Assembly: GCA_003857395.1 (NCBI GenBank)
Contig: RPRC01000101.1
Location: 1-33,886, forward strand
Length of the DNA stretch: 33,886 nt
DNA from: Geobacter sp.
Lineage (GTDB): Bacteria > Desulfobacterota > Desulfuromonadia > Geobacterales > Geobacteraceae
Reading direction: 5' to 3'
Under the pieces are notes generated by a model. It saw only the letters and a program-made list of their open reading frames with translations. It was not told the origin of the DNA and ran no database searches. The translations under genes and the position numbers were made by a program. Positions 713 through 33,257 of this stretch are shown piece after piece (positions within the stretch are counted from its first letter, which is position 1; every line of letters begins with the position of its first letter).

Positions 713-1734
713 GGTAAAACTCCTTTCGGGATCTGCATGGTGAGGCAGTGAAGCGAGCCATGCTGCTCAATCAACGGCAGGCAGTCGATGCCGATGACGG
801 CTCTTCCCGGGAAAGCCTCGCGGATTGCAGCAAGGGCGGCCGTGTCATTCTTGTCCAGGTAGGTTGGCACGAGGACCGCACCGTTGATGACAAGAAAATT
901 GGCATAGGTGGCCGGAAGACGTTGACCGTCTTCGTCATAACGGGGTGAAGGCCAGGGAAGGGGAATCAGGCGGAAAGGGCTGCCGTCGCTGGTTCTGAAG
1001 GACTCCAGTTCCACGGCCATCTGTTGAAGCGCCGTGAAATGTAGATCTTTTTCATCGGGACAGGAAACATAGAGTAGCGTATTTTCGGGACAAAGTCGAG
1101 CCAGCGTGTCAATGTGTGAGTCGGTGTCATCCCCGGCCAGAAATCCGCTGCCGAGCCAGAGCACCTTCTCCGTACCGAGTGTTTCTGCCAGCGTCGCCTC
1201 GATCTCTTCCCTTGACAGGTGGGGGTTGCGGTTTGGTCCCAGGAGGCATTCCTCGGTGGTAAGGAGGGTGCCCTTGCCGTCACTTTCAATACTGCCACCC
1301 TCCAGGACCAGGCCGACAGTTTTCAGTGCTGTCTTGGCAAAGACTCCGGCCTGGTGGAGACGCCTGGTTGCCTGGTTGTCCTGGTCGGCGGCAAACTTGA
1401 GGCCCCAGCCATTGAAGAAGAAGTCGAGCAGGAGCGGTTTCTCGTCTTCAAGCACGGTAATTGGTCCGAAGTCCCGCATCCAGGTATCGTTGGAGCCTAT
1501 TTCGCAGATGGTGACCCGTTCCATTATCGCCCCGGCATGACGGAGCTTTTCCTTCAGCACGTTCCTGTCCGGAGCGATGATCACTACTTGTTCGTAGAGG
1601 CTGATCTGTTTGGCGATCTCAACGAAGACCGGCTCCACTTCGTGCAGTACGGGGTGCCAGTCGCTATCTTTGTGGGGCCAGGCGAGCAGCACGCCGTCCT
1701 GCTCTTCCCATTCGGCCGGTAATCTTCTTTTCAT
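709..1734 (-). CDS. aguA: Agmatine deiminase
   Basis: Converts agmatine to N-carbamoylputrescine and ammonia; the adjacent amidase takes the next step, so the pair makes putrescine from decarboxylated arginine. It is a peptidyl-arginine-deiminase-type fold (PAD_porph family) of about 341 residues. Visible family motifs are RLPAEWEEQDGVLLAWPH at the N-terminus, WMRDFGP, LEGGSIESDGKG, the active-site histidine in DDTDSHIDTLARLCP, and the catalytic cysteine near residue 330 in GSLHCLTMQIP. I chose the ATG at 1734 because MKRRLPAEW matches where family members begin. A GTG at 1779 has a nearer GAGG and would add 15 residues, so the start is uncertain. The gene overlaps aguB by four bases. Confidence 0.93.
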   Translation of the reverse strand: MKRRLPAEWEEQDGVLLAWPHKDSDWHPVLHEVEPVFVEIAKQISLYEQVVIIAPDRNVLKEKLRHAGAIMERVTICEIGSNDTWMRDFGPITVLEDEKPLLLDFFFNGWGLKFAADQDNQATRRLHQAGVFAKTALKTVGLVLEGGSIESDGKGTLLTTEECLLGPNRNPHLSREEIEATLAETLGTEKVLWLGSGFLAGDDTDSHIDTLARLCPENTLLYVSCPDEKDLHFTALQQMAVELESFRTSDGSPFRLIPLPWPSPRYDEDGQRLPATYANFLVINGAVLVPTYLDKNDTAALAAIREAFPGRAVIGIDCLPLIEQHGSLHCLTMQIPKGVLP

Positions 1735-1974
1735 GGGCAAGCCTATATCATTATTTCCAAGGTTCGTCAATGCGGGCACTGATCCTCGCTTGAGGCGAGG
1801 CTTGATTTTTTCAGCCTTTCACGATAGTATTCATAATTCTTTCAAGCGCTTCGGTATCGCTGAAACAGCCCCGGCAATGAGGATAGCGTCCGGGATTTTT
1901 TGTCTTTTCTGAAGGGTTTGGGAACTTTTCAAGCAACCAGAGTCCTTATTTACTTGTTGTTACGGGAGTTGTTC

Positions 1975-21018: not shown

Positions 21019-21924
21019 TTATCGCGCGGTTATGAATAGTTCCAGAGAAATCGTGTCGTTCACCAGGTGCATGCCAAGTTTTTCGAACAGCTTTCCTGAT
21101 CCATAGTTGATGTTCCATTCTGTCCGGTCAATATCGAAGCACGCCTGGGCCCGGATGCTTCCGTTGTCGCCAGGCACGATATTCGCGGGAATGGAAACCT
21201 CTTTTGTCACATCTTTCAGGGTGAGTTTCCCTCTGATGAAATAGTTCGGTGAACCAGGGGTTGCACCGACCAGAACCCCGCACTCGAGAAGGTCGAAGCT
21301 TGCCGTGGGGAAACGCTCCACATCGAAAAAATCATCGGATTTTAGATGGTGGACCAAGAGGCTGTTTTCTTCCTGGTCACGAAGATCGCAATTCTTGATG
21401 GTACGCATGTCGAGAGTGATTGAGCCGTTGGTAACTTCGCCTTCCTTGACGGTAATTTCTCCGTCGGACATGGCGATGGTACCAAAATGTTTCTTGAAAA
21501 GGTTTCTTCCGGTCCATTCAACTCTGCTCTCCGTACAGTCAATGGGATGAACTCCATCGGAGAGGGCGGGCTCTTCCTCAATTTCGGGACCCACAACGTC
21601 GACGGGATAGCCGCTGCCTTCCCATTCTTCGATGCCGCCGGAAAGAACAAAAACCTGTGTATACCCGATTCCTGATAGTTTGTTTGCGGCACTTTCAGCG
21701 CCTCGAGAGCGGTTACTTGAATCGTACAGAACAATGCAGGAAATTACGTCACGGGTAATCTCTCTCACCTGTTCGAGGAAGGGTATTTCGTACACGCAAG
21801 CATTGTGTGCACCTGCTATGTGCCGTGACTGATAAAATTCTGGTGGCAGCGTGTCAATCATGATGAAATCACGTTCTTCTGCAATCCACTGGTAGAGTTC
21901 TTTGCAGGATATTTTATTGATCAT
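21019..21924 (-). CDS. Rhodanese-like/YceI fusion protein
   Basis: 301 residues with two domains. The N-terminal rhodanese-like domain (1-115) has IDTLPPEFYQSRHIAGAHNA and VFVLSGGIEEWEGSGYPV. Its active-site loop reads VLYDSSNRSRG, with Asp where catalytic rhodaneses have Cys, so sulfur transfer is not expected. The C-terminal part (about 130-300) is a YceI-type lipocalin-like barrel (DCTESRVEWTGRNLFKKHFG, RGKLTLKDVTKEVSIP, FDIDRTEWNINYGSGK), a fold that binds isoprenoid-type lipids in known members. No signal peptide is visible, unlike periplasmic YceI. AAGGA precedes the ATG. The fusion's function is unknown. Confidence 0.85.
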   Translation of the reverse strand: MINKISCKELYQWIAEERDFIMIDTLPPEFYQSRHIAGAHNACVYEIPFLEQVREITRDVISCIVLYDSSNRSRGAESAANKLSGIGYTQVFVLSGGIEEWEGSGYPVDVVGPEIEEEPALSDGVHPIDCTESRVEWTGRNLFKKHFGTIAMSDGEITVKEGEVTNGSITLDMRTIKNCDLRDQEENSLLVHHLKSDDFFDVERFPTASFDLLECGVLVGATPGSPNYFIRGKLTLKDVTKEVSIPANIVPGDNGSIRAQACFDIDRTEWNINYGSGKLFEKLGMHLVNDTISLELFITAR

Positions 21925-21992
21925 TGTTTTTTCCTTGGAGTCAGTTGTCTGATGTTTGGATTTAATGGTAATTAATACGTTTCGTTTGAATT

Positions 21993-22021
21993 AGTATACA
22001 TGATTTCAGTGAACAGGCAAA
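21993..22021 (-). promoter_or_regulatory. Candidate promoter of the rhodanese-YceI gene
   Basis: On the minus strand TTTGCC, a 17-bp spacer, then TATACT (5 of 6 to TATAAT). The -35 box is weak (3 of 6). The implied leader is about 65 nt. Confidence 0.4.
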
Positions 22022-22105
22022 GGGGTGAGAACAAGGGGAGGCAATTCACTATGGGCAGGAGGTCGTATTTTTTGAAAATAGTTTTCTCAAGATTCCTTCC
22101 TGTAT

Positions 22106-22133
22106 TGTCACAATCTGTCACCATTTTGTGACA
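22106..22133. promoter_or_regulatory. TGTCAC dyad plus extra half-site
   Basis: TGTCAC (22116-22121) and GTGACA (22128-22133) form a perfect dyad with a 6-bp centre; another TGTCAC lies at 22106-22111, ten bp before. This looks like a binding site for a dimeric regulator. It lies in the 463-bp gap 21925-22387 upstream of the riboswitch array, about 180 bp from the rhodanese-YceI start. The rest of that gap shows no convincing gene. Confidence 0.45.
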
Positions 22134-22387
22134 AAAAATGCTAGTTTGGCCAGCTGCTGCAGAATTAGGGAAGGGTAATGTACCTGTAATCCTGCATGAA
22201 ACAACGATCTCCAGAGGTTTGCGTCATCATGAAAAATTGGTTCAATATATGCTTCATATGAGATTGTTGTTAGAAGTTCGGAGTTATCTTGTAGAATCTA
22301 ATTGTTCTTGCTCTAATTATGAAATTTTATGTTGAATGACAGAGTTCTTTGATTTAGGGTGCATCACGAAAAACATTACCTTACAAA

Positions 22388-22478
22388 GGTGAAAGACGAT
22401 AATACTAAACCATTCGAGAGGATGGGACGGAAAGCCTACAGGGTCTCATGCAGACAGCCGGGTCGCCGAAATATCACC
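22388..22478 (+). promoter_or_regulatory. Riboswitch 1: GEMM-Ib, cGAMP-type aptamer
   Basis: P1 is GGTGA (22388-22392) with TCACC (22474-22478). Inside is ATAATACTAAACC, then a GAGA-capped hairpin, GGGACGGAAAGCC and GCCGGGTCGCCGAA, the GEMM-I core. At the base-pairing position equal to Vc2 G20 the residue is A, the change that turns c-di-GMP specificity towards 3',3'-cGAMP in Geobacter riboswitches. The neighbouring pair is C-G instead of G-C (the C after that A and the second G of GACGG), a compensatory swap relative to copy 3. Terminator sequence starts inside the aptamer, so ligand binding should favour read-through. Confidence 0.88.
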
Positions 22479-22503
22479 AGATATTCGGCGACCCGGCTTT
22501 TTT
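22457..22503 (+). terminator. Terminator of riboswitch 1
   Basis: GCCGGGTCGCCGAA pairs with TTCGGCGACCCGGC, extended by ATAT on both sides of the loop, and six T follow. The 5' arm is the 3' part of the aptamer core, so aptamer and terminator compete. Confidence 0.92.
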
Positions 22504-22616
22504 ATTGTGTTTCATGATTCGGCCGCGCAAGGCAAAGTTATTTAACGGCAAATAAAAGATTAAAGTTCTGGCAAAAAATACCGAACAATTACTAAAACGA
22601 AACAGATTCATAAACC

Positions 22617-22703
22617 TGATACACGATAATACTAAACCATCCGCGAGGATGGGACGGAAAGCCTACAGGGTCTCATGCAGACAGCCGGGTCGCCGAAATA
22701 TCA
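22617..22703 (+). promoter_or_regulatory. Riboswitch 2: second GEMM-Ib, cGAMP-type aptamer
   Basis: Nearly identical to copy 1 from GATAATACTAAACC through the terminator; the main difference is the first hairpin (ATCCGCGAGGAT instead of ATTCGAGAGGAT), which keeps pairing and its GNRA loop. The 5' P1 strand has diverged but still pairs, as TGATA (22617-22621) with TATCA (22699-22703). The same A at the G20 position and the same C-G swap are present. A recent tandem duplication kept functional by selection is the simplest reading. Confidence 0.88.
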
Positions 22704-22730
22704 CCAGATATTCGGCACCCGGCTTTTTTT
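22684..22730 (+). terminator. Terminator of riboswitch 2
   Basis: Same stem as copy 1 but with one G deleted in the 3' arm (TTCGGCACCCGGC), leaving a one-base bulge. Seven T follow. Confidence 0.9.
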
Positions 22731-22864
22731 ATGGTGAGGCACCGCTTGAAACAACATTAGAAACTGGGAGGAAATAACATACTTATCTAATGCACAGGTA
22801 CGTTGGAAAGCAACAGGGTTCATCGGTTATGGAGGTGTCGGAAGCAAAAAATGTACGGATCACC

Positions 22865-22964
22865 ATCCGCCTGAACAGGGTAAACCATTCGAAAGAATGG
22901 GGCGCAAAGCCACTGATCTAAATCCCGGAATTATCGGGACATGGTAGCAGGGTTGCCGGGCGAT
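22865..22964 (+). promoter_or_regulatory. Riboswitch 3: canonical GEMM-I, c-di-GMP-type aptamer
   Basis: The core reads ACAGGGTAAACC, a GAAA-capped hairpin (CCATTCGAAAGAATGG), GGCGCAAAGCC, a second hairpin (TCCCGGAATTATCGGGA) and TAGCAGGGTTGCC, very close to the Vibrio Vc2 c-di-GMP riboswitch. P1 is ATC(C)GCC (22865-22871) with GGCGAT (22959-22964), one bulged base. The ligand-contacting G20 is kept and followed by the G-C pair, so c-di-GMP is the expected ligand, in contrast to copies 1 and 2. Confidence 0.9.
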
Positions 22965-22969
22965 AGTAG

Positions 22970-23023
22970 TACCTCCTTGAGGGGTGCTCTTCGTTTGGGC
23001 ACAGATATCAAGGAGGTATTTTT
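22970..23023 (+). promoter_or_regulatory. Expression platform: anti-SD hairpin that is also terminator-like
   Basis: TACCTCCTTGA (22970-22980) pairs perfectly with TCAAGGAGGTA (23008-23018), with GTGC/GCAC inside. The 3' arm contains the Shine-Dalgarno AGGAGG (23011-23016) of the following gene, and five T follow directly. The same hairpin could block ribosomes, terminate transcription, or both. The extended P1 pairing GTAC/GTAC (22853-22856 with 22969-22972) would compete with its base. Confidence 0.8.
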
Positions 23024-23025
23024 GT

Positions 23026-25083
23026 ATGGAAGCAAAAGGTAGATGTGCGTTTTTAAACGCAAAATTTGTTAAAGCAGTAATCTGTAGTAATGTTAGGTGT
23101 TTGAGTGTTTTTGTCGTAGCAGCGACATTGCTTTTCTCGTCGGTGATGTCGGCGTATTCGGCCCAGGCCACCCTTTCATGGGATGCCGTATATGAGACAA
23201 GCGTTGCTGGTTATAAACTGCATTACGGCAAGACTCCCGGTGTCTATACCAACTCCGTTAATTCCGGAAAAACGACAAGTTATACCGTTACCGATCTGGC
23301 TGAAGGAGAGACATATTATTTTGCCTCGACAGCCTATGACTCGGAAGGAAACCAGAGCGGGTATTCTAACGAGGTGAGCAAGTCGGTGCCGTCAACTACC
23401 CAGTATTCCCTCATGATCGCCCAGAATGGAACCGGTAGCGGAACAGTGACCGGTTCCGGTATTAATTGCGGAAGCGTCTGCACCAATGGCTACGCGCCGG
23501 GAACAGCCGTCACCCTTACGGCAACCCCCGCAAGCGGTTCATCCTTCGCGGGCTGGTCCGGAGGCGGTTGCAGCGGGACCGGAAGCTGCACCGTTACCAT
23601 GAACGCCTCAACAAGCATAACCGCGACCTTCAATTCCTCTGCCGTAACCTATGACATCACTGCAACTGCGAACGGTAGCGGCTCGATCACGGCACTGAAT
23701 AACCCCAATGTCAGCCAAGGAACCAGTGGTTCAACCACAGTAAGCATCGTCAAGGTCACCAAAGCTGCTAATCAGCAATTTTCGATTACACCCAACTCCG
23801 GTTATAAAACAGCCAGCGTATCCGTTGATGGATCCGTGGTAGCCACCAACCAGGGCAGTTATACCTACACTTTCAGCAATGTTGCCGCAAACCATACGAT
23901 TTCCGCAACCTTCGCGGCTAATCCGGTAGCCACCTATTCCATTTCCTCCAGCGCTGGGGCAGGCGGCAGCATCTCACCGGCAGGCTCGGTTTCAGTTAAT
24001 TCGGGCGGAAGCCAGGGATATACCATAACACCGGCAAGCGGTTACAAGATTGTGGGCGTAACGGTCGATGGTGTGTCGGTAGGCGCGGTGTCCACTTACA
24101 TCTTCAGCAACGTCACCGCCAATCATACGATCTTGCCGACGTTTGCCGAGAACAGCACGTCTTCGACATCTATTACCAGTTCCAGTGTTTGGCAAAACCA
24201 GTCCTTTGCATCGCAAAGCGGAGTGTTCACTGCCAGTTTCGACATGATTCCCAATGCCGGTAACATTGACGGAGTAACGGTGCTGTCCGCCGTACCGGCA
24301 CAAAGCTTCACCGACGGCGCGGCCATCGTCAGATTCAACACGACCGGCAGCATAGACGCTCGTAACGGAAGTTCCTATGCCGCGGATGTTGCGGTTCCCT
24401 ACACGGCCGGAAGCACTTACCACGTTCGTATGGCGGTCAATGTCCCCAACAAGACCTACGACGTCTATGTGACGCCGCTGGGTGGAAACGAAATTCATCT
24501 GGCCTCCGGATATGCCTTCAGAACTGAACAGGCCACCGTATCTGTACTCAAAAACCTCGCTGTCTTTGCCGGTGTCGGCAGCTACCAGATGTCGAATTTT
24601 GCAATAGCGGCGCAGGTGCCGACAACGTCGTACTCCATATCGGCCTCAGCCGGCACGGGCGGCAGCATTTCTCCCTCAGCCTTGGTCTCCGTTAGTTCCG
24701 GAGGGAGCAAAGGATTCACCATCACCCCGAACAGCGGCTATAAGATTGCCGATGTGAAGGTGGACGGCACATCGGTCGGCGCTGTGAGTTTGTACAATTT
24801 CAGTAACGTCACCAGTAACCACACAATAAGCGCAACATTTACCGCCACTACGACTACGAGCAGTTACGCCATAACGGCATCCGCGGCAACAGGAGGCACT
24901 ATTTCGCCGGCAGGAACAGTTGTGGTGAGCGGTGGAACGAGCAAAACATACACCATAGTGCCGAAATATCGCTACCGCATCTACTACGTAAAGGTAGACG
25001 GCGTATCGAAGGGTGCGATTAGTTCCTACACCTTCTCCAATGTCGCGGCCAAGCACACAATTCAGGCCTATTTCAAACGATAA
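23026..25083 (+). CDS. Secreted FN3 / InlB-like repeat surface protein
   Basis: 685 residues. A long signal peptide (1-48, ending SAYSAQA) is followed by a fibronectin type III domain (49-125, ATLSWDAVYETSVAGYKLHYG). Then come five divergent InlB-B-like beta repeats (about 126-205, 208-300, 303-377, 535-610 and 613-685; pattern GGSISP, SGGS, ITPxSGYK, VxVDGxSVGAVS, FSNVxxNHTI). A distinct beta-sandwich-like region (about 378-530) interrupts them. No membrane anchor or sorting signal is visible. It probably acts outside the cell in the matrix or at the surface; no enzyme motif is seen. I chose the ATG at 23026, 9 nt after AGGAGG; a GTG at 22984 lies inside the switch hairpin. It is controlled by the upstream riboswitches. 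Confidence 0.85.
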   Translation: MEAKGRCAFLNAKFVKAVICSNVRCLSVFVVAATLLFSSVMSAYSAQATLSWDAVYETSVAGYKLHYGKTPGVYTNSVNSGKTTSYTVTDLAEGETYYFASTAYDSEGNQSGYSNEVSKSVPSTTQYSLMIAQNGTGSGTVTGSGINCGSVCTNGYAPGTAVTLTATPASGSSFAGWSGGGCSGTGSCTVTMNASTSITATFNSSAVTYDITATANGSGSITALNNPNVSQGTSGSTTVSIVKVTKAANQQFSITPNSGYKTASVSVDGSVVATNQGSYTYTFSNVAANHTISATFAANPVATYSISSSAGAGGSISPAGSVSVNSGGSQGYTITPASGYKIVGVTVDGVSVGAVSTYIFSNVTANHTILPTFAENSTSSTSITSSSVWQNQSFASQSGVFTASFDMIPNAGNIDGVTVLSAVPAQSFTDGAAIVRFNTTGSIDARNGSSYAADVAVPYTAGSTYHVRMAVNVPNKTYDVYVTPLGGNEIHLASGYAFRTEQATVSVLKNLAVFAGVGSYQMSNFAIAAQVPTTSYSISASAGTGGSISPSALVSVSSGGSKGFTITPNSGYKIADVKVDGTSVGAVSLYNFSNVTSNHTISATFTATTTTSSYAITASAATGGTISPAGTVVVSGGTSKTYTIVPKYRYRIYYVKVDGVSKGAISSYTFSNVAAKHTIQAYFKR

Positions 25084-25200: not shown

Positions 25201-26409
25201 ATGTTAAGCAAAAAAATGACGCGATTTTTTAGGATTCTATTAATAGCCGCTTTCGTTGTACCATGTCTATCAGCAGCGGCCTTCGCAGCCACGTACTATG
25301 TGGATTCTGTGAGTGGAAACGACAGCAACAGTGGTAATACTTCATCTTCCCCCTGGAAAACCATAGCCAAGGTCAACAAATCGAGCTTCCAACCGGGCGA
25401 TTCAATTCTCTTTGCTGCGGGCAGAAGCTGGCAAGAGCAGCTCAATCCGCCTTCGAACGGCGCCGCCGGCAAGCCGATCACCTTCGGCGCTTACGGTACC
25501 GGCGATAAGCCTACTATTGACGGCAACAATTCAATCCAATACAACATAAACTGGAACAAGAGCTACATTACGATTGATGGTCTGCACCTCACACGGGCAG
25601 CTAATTGTAACATCTCGCAATGGTCTGGCGAGGCTGATTACGGGATAGTGCAGAACTGTCTGCTCGAATACTCTATTGGCATGGGAATCTACGCCGGGCA
25701 GAGTGCTTCGCTCACCGCGAAAAATTGGATTGTTCGCAATAATGTGTTCCAGAACGGAGTTAATGGCTCTCCAGCGAAGCATGATATCTATATTAAATGG
25801 GCGTCGGGCTGGCTCATTGAAAACAACAGATTTACCGATAAAAAGGCTTCCGCTGTAAACCTCAATGGCTCGTCCGACTGCATCGTGAGATACAACTATT
25901 CAAGCGGTCACGTTGCGCAATTCGTGCAATTTTACCAGGATACTGCGGGTGGTTCAAAGAACAACCAAATTTACTACAACGTCGTCAATGGCGATAATCA
26001 ATTGATCTATGCTGGTGGGGGTAGTGGTCATTCGGGAAATGTTGTCTACAATAACACCCAATATGGCGGCAAGATCGGCATCTATATTGAGGGGGGCGGT
26101 ACGTTTGCGGCTGTCAAGAACAACATCTTTTGGGGCTTATCCGGCACGGTATTGAATAACACAAGTAGCATGGGCTCAGTATCGAACAATAACCTCAATA
26201 GTTATAATCCGCTGTTTGTGAATGCGGGAACTGATTTCCACCTTACTGCCAGTTCACCGTGCAGAAATGCCGGAACAAAAGTCTCACTGACGAGGGATAT
26301 GGATGGTAAAGACATTTCTTCGCTAACATCCCCGGATATTGGAGCATATCAATACAGTGCTACGGCGACTGCAACCCTGAGTCCGCCTACAAACCTACGC
26401 TTGCTGTAA
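25201..26409 (+). CDS. Secreted right-handed beta-helix protein
   Basis: 402 residues. A signal peptide (1-30, ending AAAFA) is followed by ATYYVDSVSGNDSNSGNTSS, the typical opening of DUF1565/pectate-lyase-like parallel beta-helix proteins. Short repeating coils (WLIENNRF, CIVRYNYS, KNNQIYYNVVN, GNVVYNNTQYGG, AAVKNNIFWG) follow. The end has the choice-of-anchor-Q pattern (SPCRNAGTKVSLTRDMDG, SPDIGAYQY). Such proteins bind or cleave polysaccharides; I see no certain catalytic residues. The C-terminus stops at PPTNLRLL, like the first strand of an FN3 domain. GAGGAG precedes the ATG. It lies 117 bp after the repeat-protein gene and may share its riboswitch-controlled transcript. Confidence 0.85.
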   Translation: MLSKKMTRFFRILLIAAFVVPCLSAAAFAATYYVDSVSGNDSNSGNTSSSPWKTIAKVNKSSFQPGDSILFAAGRSWQEQLNPPSNGAAGKPITFGAYGTGDKPTIDGNNSIQYNINWNKSYITIDGLHLTRAANCNISQWSGEADYGIVQNCLLEYSIGMGIYAGQSASLTAKNWIVRNNVFQNGVNGSPAKHDIYIKWASGWLIENNRFTDKKASAVNLNGSSDCIVRYNYSSGHVAQFVQFYQDTAGGSKNNQIYYNVVNGDNQLIYAGGGSGHSGNVVYNNTQYGGKIGIYIEGGGTFAAVKNNIFWGLSGTVLNNTSSMGSVSNNNLNSYNPLFVNAGTDFHLTASSPCRNAGTKVSLTRDMDGKDISSLTSPDIGAYQYSATATATLSPPTNLRLL

Positions 26410-26530: not shown

Positions 26531-27739
26531 TCAGTTGAAAATAGCATCAAATTTCGAAGGAATATGCGCAATATTGAACTCCCGCATCACTTTTAATCTC
26601 GCCAGTCTTCCCATTTCATCCCGCACATGAGCGTTCTCTATCAGGTGTTCCAACGCCAAAGCAAGTCCAGCGGAGTCCTGCTGCTCAACTAACAACCCCT
26701 CTTTTCCATCCTCGACAAGTTCCGGTATGCCCACAATCTTTGTCGAAACCACAGGCAGCTCCATGGCCATGGCTTCCATGATGGAAACCGGAATTCCGTC
26801 TCGCTGTCCTTGGTCGGTAATAATTGAAGGAAGAACGAAGATTGAAGCTTTCCGAAGCAATTCATAAACTATTGCCTGCTGCTGGCTGCCGAGAAAGGTC
26901 ACAATGTCCTCAACTCCGAGGTCTGAAGCTTTATTGTGCAGCGCATCTTTCTCTTCGCCATCACCGACAATAAGGCAAGTGAAAGAAATTCCCTTGTCTT
27001 TCAACTTCCGACACGCTTCCAAAAGGTAGTGAAAACCTTTCATGGCAACAAGCCTTCCTACGGCGAGGACAACTGGACAGTCACTTTTTTCACCGTGACT
27101 CGGTGTAAACGTTCCAGGGTCGATACCGCAATGGATAATAACCAATTTCTCCGAGAGATAATTTCCATATTTGTTAAGTATAAATTTTTTATTGTATTCC
27201 GAGATAGTGACAGCTTTTTTGCAAAGATGCAGTTTTGTACCCAGCATAAGAGGGTCGATGAATATGTTTGAAGCGTGCATAGTGAAGCTGTACGGAATAT
27301 TTAAATAATTGGATAAAAAAAGCGCAATAGATGTGGGCGCATTCAAAAAATGAGCATGTATCTGCGAGATGCCTTCGTCTCTGATCTTCACATAAACAAA
27401 CCCCGCTTCAATAAAATGCTTTATCAGACGAAAGCGGTCGTGTAGGTTTCTTGTTTCTCTTTCATTAAATATGAGGCGTATATTTTTCAGCCATTCAAGT
27501 GGCTTACAAGCTAAAACATATAATTGGGCATACAGTTGCCTGAAGATGCTGGCTTGATCCAAGTACAGAGTGCCCCTGTAATAATCTAGGGTTTCATCTG
27601 AGACGTCTTCCTTTAGCGGCGATCCTCTAGAAACTGTCTTGATGTTGTATCCGGCAGCAGCTAGTGCGCGTATTTCTCGATCTATGAAAGTAGCCGACAA
27701 TGCAGGCAACCGGCTTGCTACGTACAAGATTTTTTTCAT
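26531..27739 (-). CDS. Glycosyltransferase, GT4 family
   Basis: About 402 residues, GT-B fold. The N-terminal part starts KKILYVASRLPALSATFIDRE and contains IHAHFLNAPTSIAL. The C-terminal nucleotide-sugar half has VVLAVGRLVAMKGFHYLLEA, CLIVGDGEEKDAL and the EX7E-type motif in DGIPVSIMEAMAMELPVVST near residues 315-335. It would transfer a sugar from a nucleotide donor in the cytoplasm to the growing polysaccharide unit; donor and acceptor are unknown. The ATG at 27739 follows a GGAGAGAGGGGG stretch. It is the last gene of the operon in transcription order. Confidence 0.9.
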   Translation of the reverse strand: MKKILYVASRLPALSATFIDREIRALAAAGYNIKTVSRGSPLKEDVSDETLDYYRGTLYLDQASIFRQLYAQLYVLACKPLEWLKNIRLIFNERETRNLHDRFRLIKHFIEAGFVYVKIRDEGISQIHAHFLNAPTSIALFLSNYLNIPYSFTMHASNIFIDPLMLGTKLHLCKKAVTISEYNKKFILNKYGNYLSEKLVIIHCGIDPGTFTPSHGEKSDCPVVLAVGRLVAMKGFHYLLEACRKLKDKGISFTCLIVGDGEEKDALHNKASDLGVEDIVTFLGSQQQAIVYELLRKASIFVLPSIITDQGQRDGIPVSIMEAMAMELPVVSTKIVGIPELVEDGKEGLLVEQQDSAGLALALEHLIENAHVRDEMGRLARLKVMREFNIAHIPSKFDAIFN

Positions 27740-27755
27740 TCCGCCCCCTCTCTCC

Positions 27756-28913
27756 TTAAGGCAATGTGGCGTCGGAATCAACAAGTCTTGACAAGTATTC
27801 TTGTAAACAATCTGAACGGTGACCCCATGTAATATTATCTAAATGTCTTTGGCGTTCATCCATACCCCTTTTGAAGTAAATGTCAGGGTTTTCTTGATAG
27901 CAATTGTAGCACTCGATAATTCTTTCCGCAAAGGAGTCGGCGGTTGTCTCGTGAACCCAGAAATACTTGTTATTGGTTCCCACGGCATTTGTATGCGCTA
28001 TAATATCGGTTAATAGGATATTCTTTCCGCAGGCAATGTACTCCATTAATTTCAGTGGACTGCTAACCCTCCACCAGAAAATATCGGGGAGGGGTATTAC
28101 ACACAAGTCGGCTGTTGATATGAATTGAGGGACCTCATTGCATGCTACCCAGTCATGAATTTTTACTGTATCTTCCAAGCTGGCATCCCGTATGATTTTT
28201 TCTAACTTTTCTGAACATTCTCCTTTCCCCAAAATAAGAAGCTTTATTGCCTGTTCGCGATGTCTGATAATTCGAAAAGATTCGACAAGTTCTATGACGC
28301 CCCGGGCATTCGAAAGAGAACCATGATAAAAACAGACAAAATCATGGACGCTGAAACCGATTTTCTGCTTAAGCTCAAGGTTTTTCGGTAAAGGTTTAAA
28401 CATTTCCTCGTCAACTCCAGACTCCCAGATACCAACCTGCTTATGGATCTCCGTGCACTTATTTTGGATATAATTTAACATTTCTGGAGTTATTACAGTG
28501 ATTCCTTGGTAATACCTGTTGGCAAAATGTACTTCTTTACAAAATTGCTTTTCAATTGTTTCCGCCTGTTCTCTGACATAGTCTACAGGGATAGTGCGTA
28601 AGTCATAGACGAAGATAGTTTTAAACTGATGTATGAAACTACTGATTATTGGAAAAAGTGTCGGCATGTAAACACTTCTGTAATCAGTCATACAGACATC
28701 ATATTTTCTCGTAAGAAGAAGGAAAGTTGTCAATATATATGCGACAATCGAATACCCCCGTCTCAATCCAAACAATTTAGAAATGTGATAATTTCCATTT
28801 TCTATTTTAAATATGTCGCGACTTTTGAATATATAGTCCACTTTATTTTTTTTTCTGAGTTCCCTGACTATTTCATCATACCAAGGCTCCCGAACGACAA
28901 TGAGAATTTTCAT
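27756..28913 (-). CDS. Glycosyltransferase, GT4-like
   Basis: About 385 residues. The N-terminal half is divergent (MKILIVVREPWYDEIVREL). The C-terminal half shows GT-B features: VCFYHGSLSNARGVIELVESF, KLLILGKGECSEKL, TVKIHDWV, and ADLCVIPLPDIFWWRVSSPLKLMEYIACG with the catalytic-site Glu in PLKLMEYIACGKNIL. The ATG at 28913 has GGAG upstream. It ends 16 bp before the next GT4 gene starts, so the two are cotranscribed. Donor and acceptor cannot be read. Confidence 0.87.
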   Translation of the reverse strand: MKILIVVREPWYDEIVRELRKKNKVDYIFKSRDIFKIENGNYHISKLFGLRRGYSIVAYILTTFLLLTRKYDVCMTDYRSVYMPTLFPIISSFIHQFKTIFVYDLRTIPVDYVREQAETIEKQFCKEVHFANRYYQGITVITPEMLNYIQNKCTEIHKQVGIWESGVDEEMFKPLPKNLELKQKIGFSVHDFVCFYHGSLSNARGVIELVESFRIIRHREQAIKLLILGKGECSEKLEKIIRDASLEDTVKIHDWVACNEVPQFISTADLCVIPLPDIFWWRVSSPLKLMEYIACGKNILLTDIIAHTNAVGTNNKYFWVHETTADSFAERIIECYNCYQENPDIYFKRGMDERQRHLDNITWGHRSDCLQEYLSRLVDSDATLP

Positions 28914-28987
28914 TTCAGTCTCCTTTTTCAACATACCCCAGTTAAAAAAAGATCTCTGGATTTCGGCTCCGCTGGCGGAATACGCTG

Positions 28988-30436
28988 TCAATCATTTTGT
29001 TTTCCAGAAAAATCGACTAGATTTTCAGCGCTGAAGAGAATGGCTATCAGGATGAATATAAGATAAAAGTTTGAATCCGGATGACGGAGGAATCCATCGA
29101 ATTTTTGCGCTTCTACTAAAAACATGATGAAACATATCAGGTATGCGGAATAACAACTTTTCAAGTAGGGCTCTAAATTGGCATAAACTTTCCTGAGTCT
29201 GATTGTACGGTAAGCCAGAAACATATAGCTGATAAGTCCATAGATACCTACTGTGGACAATATAATAAGAATAATGTTGTGCGGCCACGTCATTTCCTCG
29301 CCGGCAATAATTTTGCGCCAGTTGAATTCTTTGGATATGTATGGTGCATAAGAGGGGCCAGCTCCCAAGTAATGATGTGATTTCGAGAACTCAAGACTAG
29401 GTGCCCACGTGTAATATCTGGTCTCTGGAATGTAACCAACATTTTTGCTCGTATCGGCAAAATCGTAAAAACGGTCTAGTAAGTTACTGTCTTTGGAGTA
29501 CGTTTTTAAGGCAAAGATAGTCGCGGTGGAAACTGCAATAATCGATACAAAAATCACGGATTTCTTCCAAAGCTGAACCGATCCGGAAGACAGAAGAATT
29601 ATGACGGCTCCGATTAAAAAAACTGCACTAGCGCCCCTTGCCTGTGTCATTATCATGGCTATAATTGTGCAGGCGGTTAGCGCCCATACAAAAAACTTGC
29701 CTCTTTGGAATTCCCCTCGTATCAACATGGTGAAGAGCCATAAGGCGCACATCATAGTGTATTCCCCATATGCCTCTCCACGGAAGGAAAAGCCCTGGAT
29801 CCGTGTTGCTTCTTCACCGCTGAACACCCATAAAGACAGAAACTCTGCTTTCAGTGCATCTATCTGAGGGTAAATCAGGAAAAGTAATGAAAAAACGAGG
29901 TTCATCAGCAATACCGCCAGCATGATCTTGTTGATCGCCATGAGCTGACTTTTTTCCCGGATGGTGCTGATGATCATCCAGATCAATACTGAAGCGAATA
30001 TAATGCTTTGATACATCTCGAAGTGATCACTGAACCCCTGTTTCGCGAAAAAGAGGGAAACAGTATAGGAACATATGACAAGGATCAGGGGCAAAGTAAC
30101 ACTGTTGTTTTTGATCCTCTCGTATAACTTTCCGGTACTCTCCCTGAAGGAATAGCGAACGAAAAGCACCAGCAATGCAATCAATATGAGGATATTAGTT
30201 GATGAAGTATATAGTTGCCTGATTGGGACATTCATCATGGACATAAATATCAGCACATATACTATTTGCTCGTTTTTCAGGTAGAATAAAACTGCTACAT
30301 ATACCAATACTATACCGGAAAATATTGCTCCCTTTATAATGAATGGTTCATTGTAATACTGAGTAATGAGCAATACTGATGTCAAAACTGCTGATACAAT
30401 CAGTGCGTAAATAACGGCGGGCAGATATTTATTCAA
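28988..30436 (-). CDS. O-antigen polymerase/ligase-type membrane protein
   Basis: About 482 residues and roughly 12 hydrophobic helices, with a large loop near residues 320-400 (PETRYYTWAPSLEFSKSHHYLGAGPS, EEMTWPHNIILIIL). This is the layout of the Wzy/WaaL O-antigen ligase superfamily, in which such a loop holds the active-site residues. It would polymerise or transfer the repeat unit on the periplasmic side. There is no early ATG. I favour the TTG at 30436 because GGAGG lies five bases upstream; a TTG at 30460 has no good Shine-Dalgarno. Polymerase versus ligase cannot be decided. Confidence 0.82.
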   Translation of the reverse strand: MNKYLPAVIYALIVSAVLTSVLLITQYYNEPFIIKGAIFSGIVLVYVAVLFYLKNEQIVYVLIFMSMMNVPIRQLYTSSTNILILIALLVLFVRYSFRESTGKLYERIKNNSVTLPLILVICSYTVSLFFAKQGFSDHFEMYQSIIFASVLIWMIISTIREKSQLMAINKIMLAVLLMNLVFSLLFLIYPQIDALKAEFLSLWVFSGEEATRIQGFSFRGEAYGEYTMMCALWLFTMLIRGEFQRGKFFVWALTACTIIAMIMTQARGASAVFLIGAVIILLSSGSVQLWKKSVIFVSIIAVSTATIFALKTYSKDSNLLDRFYDFADTSKNVGYIPETRYYTWAPSLEFSKSHHYLGAGPSYAPYISKEFNWRKIIAGEEMTWPHNIILIILSTVGIYGLISYMFLAYRTIRLRKVYANLEPYLKSCYSAYLICFIMFLVEAQKFDGFLRHPDSNFYLIFILIAILFSAENLVDFSGKQND

Positions 30437-30504
30437 TTCAGCCTCCGGAGGTTCGTCCAATGGTTTATCTCAGGCTGTTGCGATCGGCTTGCGGGCTTTC
30501 TATT

Positions 30505-31971
30505 CTATAACAGAAACGCAAATAGAGACTTGATTCTGTTCCCGATCTCTTTTCTTTCACTTCTTGTCAAAATTATATAATAACTTACAAGCGCGTAAAG
30601 GAACAAAAGGACTGATTTCATAAAAAACATGTTCAGGTTCGTGACATTATTGGCCGGTCCGGAAACATAACTTACCAATCCTCCCCCCGCCAGTGCCAGG
30701 GCAAACGCAGCAATCAACCTGCCGGAGGAAAAGCTGAATGGGAAATACTTCTTTATGGTCAGTCCATACGAAAGAAAATACACTGCCGCGGATACGTCAA
30801 GCGCCAGAACTAGACCCGTCGCGGCATAATGGGGGACCAGGACCGCCGCAGTTATCAGGAACACCGCAAGTTGAACAATAGCCATCAACGAAGTATGCGC
30901 AACTTTGTTCACCGAATATAAACCGGTTGAAAAAATGAGCGTGAGTGCCCGAACCGCATAATAGACACAAATGCCTCCTACCAGCGTCGCGGCCGGGTAG
31001 TATTCGGGAGGAGTCAGAAGTCGGAGGATATCCCGGGCAAAAAAGGTTAGGAACGTAATCAATAACAGCAGTAAATAGGAAAAGTACCTGAAAACCTTCT
31101 CATACAGATATTTTTCATCCGCTTGGCCGGCGTTGGAAAAAGCAAAAGGGTTCCAGGCACGGTTGAAGGAGGTCTTGAACATTTCGATGGTATTCGCCAC
31201 CTTGTCGGCAATTCCGTAAAGCCCCACTGCCGTCAAGCCGGTATAATACGCAAGAATATACCTGGGAAGAAGAGCCATGACATTTCCCTGGAGAATTGCG
31301 GGAAGGCCGGGCAGGGAAAATTTCATGATGCCGACTGCTTCACTGAGCTTTATTTTCTTTGAAAAAAACTTTCTCTGCTGTAGTAACAGGGGCGCTGTGA
31401 TGAGTAAAACGGTTGCAAGCCTTGCGATGAATACGCCTTTCATGTTTTGCCCCAGAGGGACTACTAAAAGATAGGTCAGCAGCGGTTGGATGATTACCTG
31501 GCTCACATTATATATGGAGAAACTGAGTGCCTTTCTGTTTAGTCGCAATAGAAGCATGAGCTGCGCATTCATATCTTCAAAGGGGAGTATCGCGCACAGC
31601 AGGAATATTTCCGCAGCATAAGACCCCCGGTGAAAAGCTAGCCGGGATATGTGGTCAGAGAACGCCGCAACGAGAACAGCGACCAGGATGGTTGATACAA
31701 AACGGAAGCTCATCGTTGAGCTGAGAAGAATTTTTCTTTCTTCTCCTTCCCGGAGGAAATAAAATTTCTGCACCCCGGTATCTATATTGAGACTGATGAC
31801 CATCAGCGCAAACAGGAAGGAAGTATTTAGGAGATCTATTATTCCGTAATCACCAGGCAGAAAAATTCGCGAAAGAATAGGCACCAGAATAAGGCCGCCA
31901 AGCTTGCCTATCCACTGACCCACTGCATAGTAAAGTGAATCTTTTGCAAATTCTTTCAATTTATAATTCAT
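30505..31971 (-). CDS. Wzx-type oligosaccharide flippase
   Basis: About 488 residues with 12-14 hydrophobic helices, of the polysaccharide biosynthesis protein/MATE-like flippase family. The start MNYKLKEFAKDSLYYAVGQWIGKL and ILVPILSRIFLPGDYGIIDLL are typical of Wzx/RfbX-like proteins. It would move lipid-linked sugar units across the inner membrane. Its ATG shares a base with the stop of the upstream deacetylase-like gene (TAATG), which suggests translational coupling. Confidence 0.9.
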   Translation of the reverse strand: MNYKLKEFAKDSLYYAVGQWIGKLGGLILVPILSRIFLPGDYGIIDLLNTSFLFALMVISLNIDTGVQKFYFLREGEERKILLSSTMSFRFVSTILVAVLVAAFSDHISRLAFHRGSYAAEIFLLCAILPFEDMNAQLMLLLRLNRKALSFSIYNVSQVIIQPLLTYLLVVPLGQNMKGVFIARLATVLLITAPLLLQQRKFFSKKIKLSEAVGIMKFSLPGLPAILQGNVMALLPRYILAYYTGLTAVGLYGIADKVANTIEMFKTSFNRAWNPFAFSNAGQADEKYLYEKVFRYFSYLLLLLITFLTFFARDILRLLTPPEYYPAATLVGGICVYYAVRALTLIFSTGLYSVNKVAHTSLMAIVQLAVFLITAAVLVPHYAATGLVLALDVSAAVYFLSYGLTIKKYFPFSFSSGRLIAAFALALAGGGLVSYVSGPANNVTNLNMFFMKSVLLFLYALVSYYIILTRSERKEIGNRIKSLFAFLL

Positions 31972-33257
31972 TACTGTTGTTTTCGTCCAAAGAAAAAAGC
32001 AGGACATTTGCCTGTTTTTGATTTGGTGTTCCGGGTCCTGTTTTTGTTTGTCAGATAAGCCCGGCAGAATCCGATGCTGTTGCCGAGAAAAAAGACCATG
32101 GCTATACCTCCCCGGAATCCGAGTTGCTTGGGGGTTAAATTATATCTGGCCAGTAACAACAGGAAGGCGAGCATGAATAAAGAAATTGTCGGTAACAAAT
32201 GCCAGGGTCTGCGCAACACCCCGTTCCCTAGCCAAAAAGAAAAAGCGATTGATAGAATGAAGGTGACAAGATAAAGGGAGGCAATCTTTGCACGGACTTT
32301 AGTCGTCTCTCTTCCTGCGGCCGTCGATGATAAATAGAGTTTCTTGAATTCCACGAAAAAATCTGGCGCCAGTTTGAACGTCCGCCAGTAGGACCGGTTA
32401 TCCTGATACCGACGTGAGCCGGTATCGTTTATTTCACTCACAGCCTGCTCGATACTCATAACCCGAACATTTCCCCTGGCCGCCAGCCAATCCAGGAGAT
32501 TCGCGAATTCGTCGAATGATATCTTTCCACGCTGCTTGTCGATATCGGAGAAATCGAATTCATGGAACATCACCCCGATAACTGCCTGCCCATCGTGAAC
32601 GCGGCCGGCAGATTCAACGGCTTTCCGCACTTCGTCGAGTTCGCAGGTTACCGGCAGATAGCGAAGAGAAGAACTTTTCTTTGCAACGCCGTACCTGTTC
32701 GCGGATACTACGGTGAATCCATGGTTTTCCAAGACCTGAAGGGTATTCAGGTCGTAGCTGTTGAAGGGAGGTATAAACGTCGTAATTTTTCCTCCGAATA
32801 TCTCCTCCAACAACCTCTTACCCTTCACTATCTTCATTTCCTGTTTTTTGTAATCGAGCCCGGAAAATTCCGTATACGGACCCTCTTTTCGAGTGCGAAT
32901 GCTTTGGTGGGAATAACCGTGCAAGGCCACGTCCAGCGTACCGGTTTTGACTGCATCCCTGAGTATCTCGGCTTTCTGGGGGGAAAGCGCGATGTTACCC
33001 TGCAAGCCGGGGTCCTCGTAATCCCTGTCGCATACGAATGGTATCACGCCAACAGTGAAGCTGAAGCGGTGGCGCCGGAAAAGATCGATCAGTTTCTGCT
33101 CCAGCACGGTTGTACTGCGTCCTGAAATATCATCATAGCGGAAAAAAATATTCGTAGTTCTGTCTACCTGCGCGTAACATTCTTCGATGGGGGGAAACAC
33201 CGTCATTATGAACAGAATATAAATCAATAAAAAACTCTTGCCGGTAAAGAATGACAT
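31971..33257 (-). CDS. DUF2334-type polysaccharide deacetylase-like membrane protein
   Basis: 428 residues. An N-terminal signal or anchor helix (GKSFLLIYILFIMTVF) is followed by a NodB-like domain of the DUF2334 kind (about 35-280). The metal site is visible as FFRYDDISG (Asp pair) and ALHGYSHQS (HxxxH), with FIPPFNSYD and the late MFHEFDFSD. The C-terminal 130 residues hold about three membrane helices, an uncommon addition. It would deacetylate or otherwise edit the polysaccharide at the periplasmic face. The ATG is preceded by AAAGG. Confidence 0.85.
   Translation of the reverse strand: MSFFTGKSFLLIYILFIMTVFPPIEECYAQVDRTTNIFFRYDDISGRSTTVLEQKLIDLFRRHRFSFTVGVIPFVCDRDYEDPGLQGNIALSPQKAEILRDAVKTGTLDVALHGYSHQSIRTRKEGPYTEFSGLDYKKQEMKIVKGKRLLEEIFGGKITTFIPPFNSYDLNTLQVLENHGFTVVSANRYGVAKKSSSLRYLPVTCELDEVRKAVESAGRVHDGQAVIGVMFHEFDFSDIDKQRGKISFDEFANLLDWLAARGNVRVMSIEQAVSEINDTGSRRYQDNRSYWRTFKLAPDFFVEFKKLYLSSTAAGRETTKVRAKIASLYLVTFILSIAFSFWLGNGVLRRPWHLLPTISLFMLAFLLLLARYNLTPKQLGFRGGIAMVFFLGNSIGFCRAYLTNKNRTRNTKSKTGKCPAFFFGRKQQ

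Follow-up and report, generated by a model that had tools for sequence, protein, structure and literature searches.

The leader described here lies in a contig of 33,886 nucleotides (nt) from Geobacter sp. (RPRC01000101.1; the window, meaning the whole stretch analysed), between a minus-strand open reading frame (ORF; 21019-21924) and a gene whose start codon, the ATG at 23026, stands behind a GGAGGT motif. It consists of an array of three GEMM-I aptamers at 22388..23026, the first two of the type that binds cyclic AMP-GMP (cGAMP), as judged from their pocket letters, and the third of the type that binds cyclic diguanosine monophosphate (c-di-GMP). When the whole window is compared with Rfam 15 (cmscan, gathering scores), RF01051 gives three matches, all on the plus strand and all over its gathering score of 35 bits; no other family reaches gathering in the window. 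The features are collected in Table 1.

Table 1. Features of the three-aptamer leader and of the gene behind it, in window coordinates.
Feature	Position	Strand	Basis
Copy 1, GEMM-I aptamer of predicted cGAMP type (A20, C21-G46)	22394..22470	+	RF01051 44.8 bits, E 8.6e-6
Terminator of copy 1	22456..22503	+	hairpin -34.8 kcal/mol, run of six T
Candidate promoter box of sigma-28 (FliA) type, lying between the first two copies	22561..22587	+	12/14 consensus positions
Copy 2, GEMM-I aptamer of predicted cGAMP type (A20, C21-G46)	22621..22697	+	RF01051 44.6 bits, E 9.4e-6
Terminator of copy 2	22683..22730	+	hairpin -28.3 kcal/mol, run of seven T
GGAGGT upstream of copy 3, complementary to the arm facing the Shine-Dalgarno (SD) sequence, possible decoy	22831..22836	+	motif
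Copy 3, canonical aptamer of predicted c-di-GMP-I type (G20, G21-C46)	22869..22960	+	RF01051 74.7 bits, E 4.3e-13
Hairpin pairing the SD sequence AAGGAGGT, proposed expression platform of copy 3	22968..23020	+	fold
Controlled gene: 685-residue protein, signal-peptide-like N-terminus (by eye), fn3, InlB B-repeats (Flg_new_2)	23026..25083	+	Pfam, ORF

On alignment to the Rfam consensus, copies 1 and 2 have A at the ligand-contacting position 20, where copy 3 has G, and the pair beside it is C-G in the first two and G-C in the third. This position, immediately ahead of the two pairs leading to P1b, we take from the consensus structure to be G20 of the Vc2 numbering. The choice between A20 and G20 is the published determinant of the ligand: an A20G change in Gmet_0970 is reported to move selectivity from cGAMP to c-di-GMP (PMC6456294). 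With A20 in copies 1 and 2 and G20 in copy 3, two ligands are therefore predicted: by pocket signature the first two copies are of the cGAMP (GEMM-Ib) type, and the third is of the c-di-GMP type. For arrays in general, described below, only the letter at position 20 was scored, the letters at position 46 coming there partly from the neighbouring column.

Aligned with each other over 121 positions, a stretch that takes in the terminators, copies 1 and 2 share the same letter at 114; whether they evolve in concert received no clear answer from the identities, and the idea is not used. In both, AGCCGGGTCGCCGAA doubles as the 3' strand of the aptamer and the 5' arm of the terminator, so that aptamer and terminator folds exclude each other. 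This competition is an ON architecture, the same layout as in the cGAMP ON switches reported for Geobacter pgcA and pilM (PMC6456294, PMC9262584), and it suggests that cGAMP would act as an ON signal here too. An earlier note, made from the letters alone, had read the array much in this way: its coordinates are correct, as are the near identity of copies 1 and 2, their A20 and C-G signature beside the G20 and G-C of copy 3, and a terminator behind each of the first two copies. Its statement that tandem cGAMP switches are known in Geobacter also holds, for example for GSU2885 (omcAHG), where two GEMM-Ib riboswitches precede one gene and expression is reported to be raised by cGAMP (PMC6456294). 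The window shares with GSU2885 the two units before one gene and adds a c-di-GMP-type aptamer with an SD hairpin, and a sigma-28-type box between the copies.

The order of the array recurs in relatives. A scan with a cGAMP-aptamer pattern, one genome per species, gave at least 118 stretches; the sample was picked by this A20 pattern, except for nine loci from a general RF01051 search. A covariance model (R1), searched within this sample on the window and 127 of 128 loci (L124 duplicates L120 and was omitted), gave 192 matches at E 0.05 or better; taking as an array units on the same strand with gaps under 450 nt, these form 146 arrays (107 single, 32 double, 7 triple). A20 and G20 occur together in nine of the 146, or in eight once L058 is discounted, whose third match (17.3 bits) was not accepted as a c-di-GMP element. 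The order is A-A-G in the window, L053, L029, and L020, and A-G in L045, L083, L118, and L128; none of the 146 arrays has G20 placed 5' of A20. L006 and L120, each with an A20 unit about 700 nt from a G20 pair, were also rejected as mixed arrays, the former for an ORF lying between, the latter for its likeness to L006. At mixed-array loci, other arrays there included, 21 of 26 A20 units have a hairpin ending in at least five T. L128 (1501-1797, minus strand) carries two GEMM-Ib units that are otherwise alike, but the second reads G20 beside an unchanged C21-G46 pair; it looks as though a single point change had made a c-di-GMP switch out of a cGAMP switch.

A second model (R2), comprising copy 3 and its hairpin, was built from the window and five R1 loci and searched in 141 genomes of the order. 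Among the matches listed, ranked by score, 14 in 13 genomes reach at least 80 bits, and the next has 67.6 bits; together they are the loci L172-L186. Since all five training loci return, as judged by contig position, among the 14 (L053=L185, L029=L186, L045=L173, L083=L184, L118=L183), R1 and R2 counts are not additive. An ORF starts at the codon behind the hairpin in 13 of the 14 (three of these ORFs are incomplete at the sequence end); L181 (81.1 bits), where another ORF stands, and L182 (67.6 bits), which is of another type, are not counted, and the 13 loci with an fn3 gene, joined by the window, make up the 14 loci compared below. A20 aptamers lie directly upstream in 11 of the 13, or 12 of 14 with the window: one unit in L173, L174, L175, L177, L180, L183, and L184, two in L176, L185, and L186, and three in L179. 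The two pocket types are kept distinct, with A20 in 18 of 18 upstream units and G20 in 13 of 14 copy-3-like units, the last, in L179, having C; Rfam independently confirms the units of the 13 loci. The three cGAMP-type units of L179 (2091-2871, plus strand) are 94-97% alike, with a 14/14 sigma-28 box before the third. L172 and L176, from the same genome (G040), are paralogous leaders with paralogous genes, one having two A20 units (L176) and the other none in the sequence examined (L172).

The hairpin behind copy 3 starts 7 nt past the aptamer, pairs arms at 22968-22980 and 23008-23020, and holds the SD sequence of the gene. A reading of it as a terminator was rejected, a TTTTT run following it in only two of the 14 aligned loci, the window and L185; since the other 12 lack such a run, the buried ribosome-binding site is the common feature, and the copy 3 stage is probably translational rather than transcriptional. 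A simple terminator scan of the window reports a terminator-like site inside this hairpin (22968-22988); the terminators of copies 1 and 2 are absent from its list. The complementarity of the SD hairpin is kept in 13 of the 14 loci, weakly in some; L180 is unaligned at the SD, yet a hairpin of its own, formed by ACTCCTTCTGT and ACAGGAAGGAGT, precedes the ATG. In unconstrained folds of the 14 loci, the mean unpaired probability of the SD is 0.001-0.402.

The further GGAGGT upstream of copy 3 has counterparts in relatives: 12 of the 14 loci have a GAGGT, placed between -27 and -38. A decoy helix between it and the anti-SD arm was considered and is not used: its duplex energies weakly beat those of shuffles (Fisher p 0.010 over the 14 related loci, 0.072 over a subset of 10), and in transcripts cut before the SD it carries almost no weight in nine of 13 loci and some in L177, L178, L175, and L184. 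A leader peptide behind this motif was likewise rejected, no shared start codon being seen by eye at a usable distance; an ATG follows 14 nt on in the window, and none stands there in L185 and L186.

The stretch between copies 1 and 2 contains a candidate promoter. The sigma-28 (FliA) promoter consensus consists of TAAAGTTT-N11-GCCGATAA-like boxes, and the box in question ends 33 nt before copy 2. A pattern shaped on it and its relatives, TAAAGTT-N13-CCGAAYA, fits the window box with 0 mismatches; with two mismatches allowed it gives 2 matches against 0.54 expected, a number equalled by 11 of 100 shuffles. When the consensus is scored over the 110 nt upstream of each of 214 distinct aptamers, five reach at least 12 of 14 positions (L179 with 14, L086 with 13, the window, L053, and L029 with 12), and none does so in five shuffles of each of the 214 regions. 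Four of these five boxes share one position, exactly -60 relative to the final A20 aptamer in an A..G array, L086 having its box at -64; the box is thus at the same place in L053/L185, L029/L186, and L179 as in the window. FliA (TIGR02479) exceeds its curated cut-off in eight of the 12 relatives searched, including all three with the box (G048, G044, G049); G012, G013, G014, and G040 have neither FliA over the cut-off nor a box at their arrays. A sigma-70-type scan of 21900-23100 gives no match on the plus strand, and a weak TTGAAT-N17-TAGGGT at 22332-22360, seen by eye only, is not a confident identification of the upstream promoter. Two promoters thus probably lead into copies 1 and 2, and a simple series arrangement of the two copies is unlikely; given the box between them, the series model would apply only to transcripts begun upstream of copy 1.

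Three observations stand beside these. In L141 (1450-1670, plus strand) a GEMM-I unit that by eye reads G20 has a perfect sigma-28 box (TAAAGTT-N13-CCGATAA) 24 nt ahead of it and, behind it, a hairpin covering GGAGGTGG and an ATG, with no cGAMP unit between box and aptamer; from its sequence, this is an independent case of a sigma-28 box, a predicted c-di-GMP-type aptamer, and a buried SD. Palindromes resembling TGTGA-N6-TCACA, of CRP/FNR-family-like appearance, are seen by eye about 50-80 nt before several cGAMP units (L174, L175, L176). The window has an intergenic inverted repeat, TGTCACCATTTTGTGACA, at 22116-22133, about 260 nt before copy 1.

In all 13 relatives' proteins fn3 is found near the N-terminus at E 0.001 or better (in six below the Pfam curated cut-off); this N-terminus is constant and the remainder varies, with malectin in L185, FG-GAP repeats in L176, and dockerin in L180, and with B-repeats in nine of the 13. 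Leader and N-terminus together look like a cassette. Behind the gene, the window has a second one with a beta-helix match (25201-26409), which may share its mRNA, and further on, on the opposite strand (26531-33257, minus), a polysaccharide cluster with glycosyltransferases, proteins of the O-antigen ligase and polysaccharide export types, and a polysaccharide deacetylase.

The account that we consider probable is that of a recurrent two-messenger leader acting at two levels, with cGAMP working on transcription and c-di-GMP on translation. Two promoters, one upstream and the sigma-28-type one between the copies, would each stand before a cGAMP-type aptamer with its terminator. Bound cGAMP would hold the 3' strand of the aptamer and let the polymerase pass the terminator, so that RNA from the first promoter would have to pass both terminators and RNA from the second only that of copy 2. 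All read-through RNA would carry the c-di-GMP-I aptamer directly 5' of the hairpin that buries the ribosome-binding site, and c-di-GMP would there tune translation of the secreted-type fn3/InlB-repeat protein. As to the direction of this last step, L020 (Geobacter sp. OR-1, of another lineage; 1328-1741, minus strand) offers a hint: in this A-A-G array, before a gene with an fn3-like stretch at its start (by eye), every unit, the c-di-GMP one too, has a terminator behind it. The terminator after the G20 aptamer (-20.8 kcal/mol for the stretch folded, run of nine T) has a 5' arm which, by eye, can also pair with the strand 5' of that aptamer, a possible overlap with P1; c-di-GMP would thus be ON there, and the three terminators a true AND series. 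Because of this locus, an opening of the hairpin by c-di-GMP (an AND gate) is slightly favoured over a closing.

Several observations weigh against the two-level account, most of them at the hairpin. With the hairpin taken alone, 74.9% of cells are paired over the 14 loci, against 38.0-53.3% when the alignment is slid and 73.9% in shuffles; changes on both sides occur in 3 pairs against 1.3 in shuffles (reached by 14 of 500), the covariation score is reached by 110 of 500 shuffles, and four of five measures fall within the shuffle range, so that covariation is not used to prove the SD hairpin. When aptamer and hairpin are taken as one, 88.7% of cells are paired (32.8-50.4% when slid) and the covariation score lies above all 500 shuffles, much of it owed to the aptamer; further pair types are not beyond shuffles (386 of 500), and a slide by -1 leaves equally many both-sided pairs (10). 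With the aptamer forced, freeing the last 22 nt, SD included, costs 3.9 to 16.8 kcal/mol in 13 loci, and the folding models for 13-14 loci yield no convincing ligand-dependent alternative fold that frees the SD. The best fold of L176 pairs the SD with upstream sequence and not with the hairpin arm; copy 3 of L179, in which position 20 reads C and the P1b stem is broken, looks decayed, and the hairpin stays; and in the window and L185 hairpin and TTTTT could also terminate. On the transcriptional side, the run of five T is missing in five of the 26 A20 units checked at mixed-array loci, the L174 unit at 2928 (four T) being the sole member of a mixed array among them; no A20 aptamer is found upstream in the sequence examined of L172 (about 500 nt only) and L178; and five genomes have FliA over the cut-off without a box at their arrays. 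Finally, A-type aptamers are reported to be able to bind c-di-GMP as well (PMC9262584), and the two inputs may thus not be fully separate.

Within the two-level account, the inputs might also be opposed, cGAMP opening transcription and c-di-GMP closing translation (cGAMP AND NOT c-di-GMP). This form would suit an SD that is mostly paired in the models and costly to free with the aptamer forced, and c-di-GMP is reported to lower cGAMP synthesis, the two messengers being assigned different lifestyles in G. sulfurreducens (PMC6456294); but the models contain no apo fold that frees the SD, and the possible P1 overlap of the L020 terminator, seen by eye, suggests c-di-GMP as ON there, and we hold opposed inputs to be rather unlikely.

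The earlier note had proposed an AND gate of three stages; in its strict transcriptional form, RNA from a single promoter before copy 1 would meet three successive terminators, of which cGAMP would open two and c-di-GMP the other. The TTTTT behind the hairpin in the window and the terminator-like site inside it would agree with such a gate, as would L020, with its terminator after the c-di-GMP aptamer and the pairing of its 5' arm. However, four loci have a sigma-28 box ahead of their last A20 units or between them; in the window it would be, at the level of sequence, the promoter between the copies that the note had named as telling against action in series, and three relatives have it at the same distance. 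The copy 3 platform common to the relatives is the SD hairpin, with no five-T run in 12 of 14 loci, and the folding models give no direction for the c-di-GMP effect, so that the AND logic is not supported as it was stated; the strict gate seems improbable. No better placed is a one-pool, pseudo-cooperative switch, in which c-di-GMP would act on the A20 copies as well, or cGAMP on copy 3: cGAMP riboswitches are reported to cross-bind c-di-GMP (PMC9262584) and that of omcST is said to be sensitive to both (PMC6456294), but the pgcA riboswitch has a reported selectivity of about 1200-fold (PMC6456294), and the pocket letters are kept distinct over the 14 loci.

The two-level account can be carried further, as a tentative possibility in which we place less trust than in the account itself. 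The leader could be an RNA-level integrator of two cyclic dinucleotides under the motility sigma factor, in which a sigma-28 and a second promoter would feed cGAMP-gated terminators and these a c-di-GMP-gated ribosome-binding site, the secreted protein being made only in one combination of the messengers; leader, signal peptide, and fn3 N-terminus would then be a fixed cassette joined to varying extracellular domains across species.

Published systems include cGAMP riboswitches in tandem pairs, c-di-GMP riboswitches in arrays of three, and other gates for two ligands (PMC9481103, PMC12452182, PMC6456294, PMC7266159, PMC9262584); in the open-access literature surveyed, outside which lie the two founding 2015 PNAS papers, no array of cGAMP with c-di-GMP units was found described. 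The triple c-di-GMP riboswitch leader (PMC4759541) has three units in one leader, as here, but reads one ligand three times, whereas the window has two pocket types and two kinds of platform. Different ligands are likewise read in one leader in the Boolean gates proposed for adenosylcobalamin with c-AMP-GMP and adenosylcobalamin with c-di-GMP-I in Desulfobacca acetoxidans, and in the glycine / c-di-GMP-I AND gate (PMC9481103); the two-input table of that source, as far as accessible, lists no pair of cGAMP with c-di-GMP, and the word "tandem" occurs 0 times in PMC8835794. Bi-mechanism tandems of the SAM-II / SAM-V type (riboswitches for S-adenosylmethionine) combine transcriptional and translational control in one RNA, as is proposed here, with one ligand at two levels (PMC9481103), where the window would have two ligands, one per level. 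By its pocket letters and platforms, the leader reads as a recurrent two-ligand, two-level variant of tandem riboswitches, the ligands being those predicted. Since a single Rfam model picks up both classes, two-ligand arrays may lie concealed in counts of c-di-GMP-I tandems, among them the 347 doublets and 12 triplets that are reported, as far as accessible, with no split by ligand (PMC9481103).

Both messengers, cGAMP and c-di-GMP, are reported to be in use in Geobacter metallireducens (PMC9262584). The gene in the window appears to be set by both signals together. A leader that apparently reads both, present before an fn3 gene in 11 other genomes, would allow a direct test of how such cells combine the two messengers. 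The natural variants for this are ready-made, with one, two, or three cGAMP units, with the c-di-GMP unit alone, and with parts absent or decayed in some.

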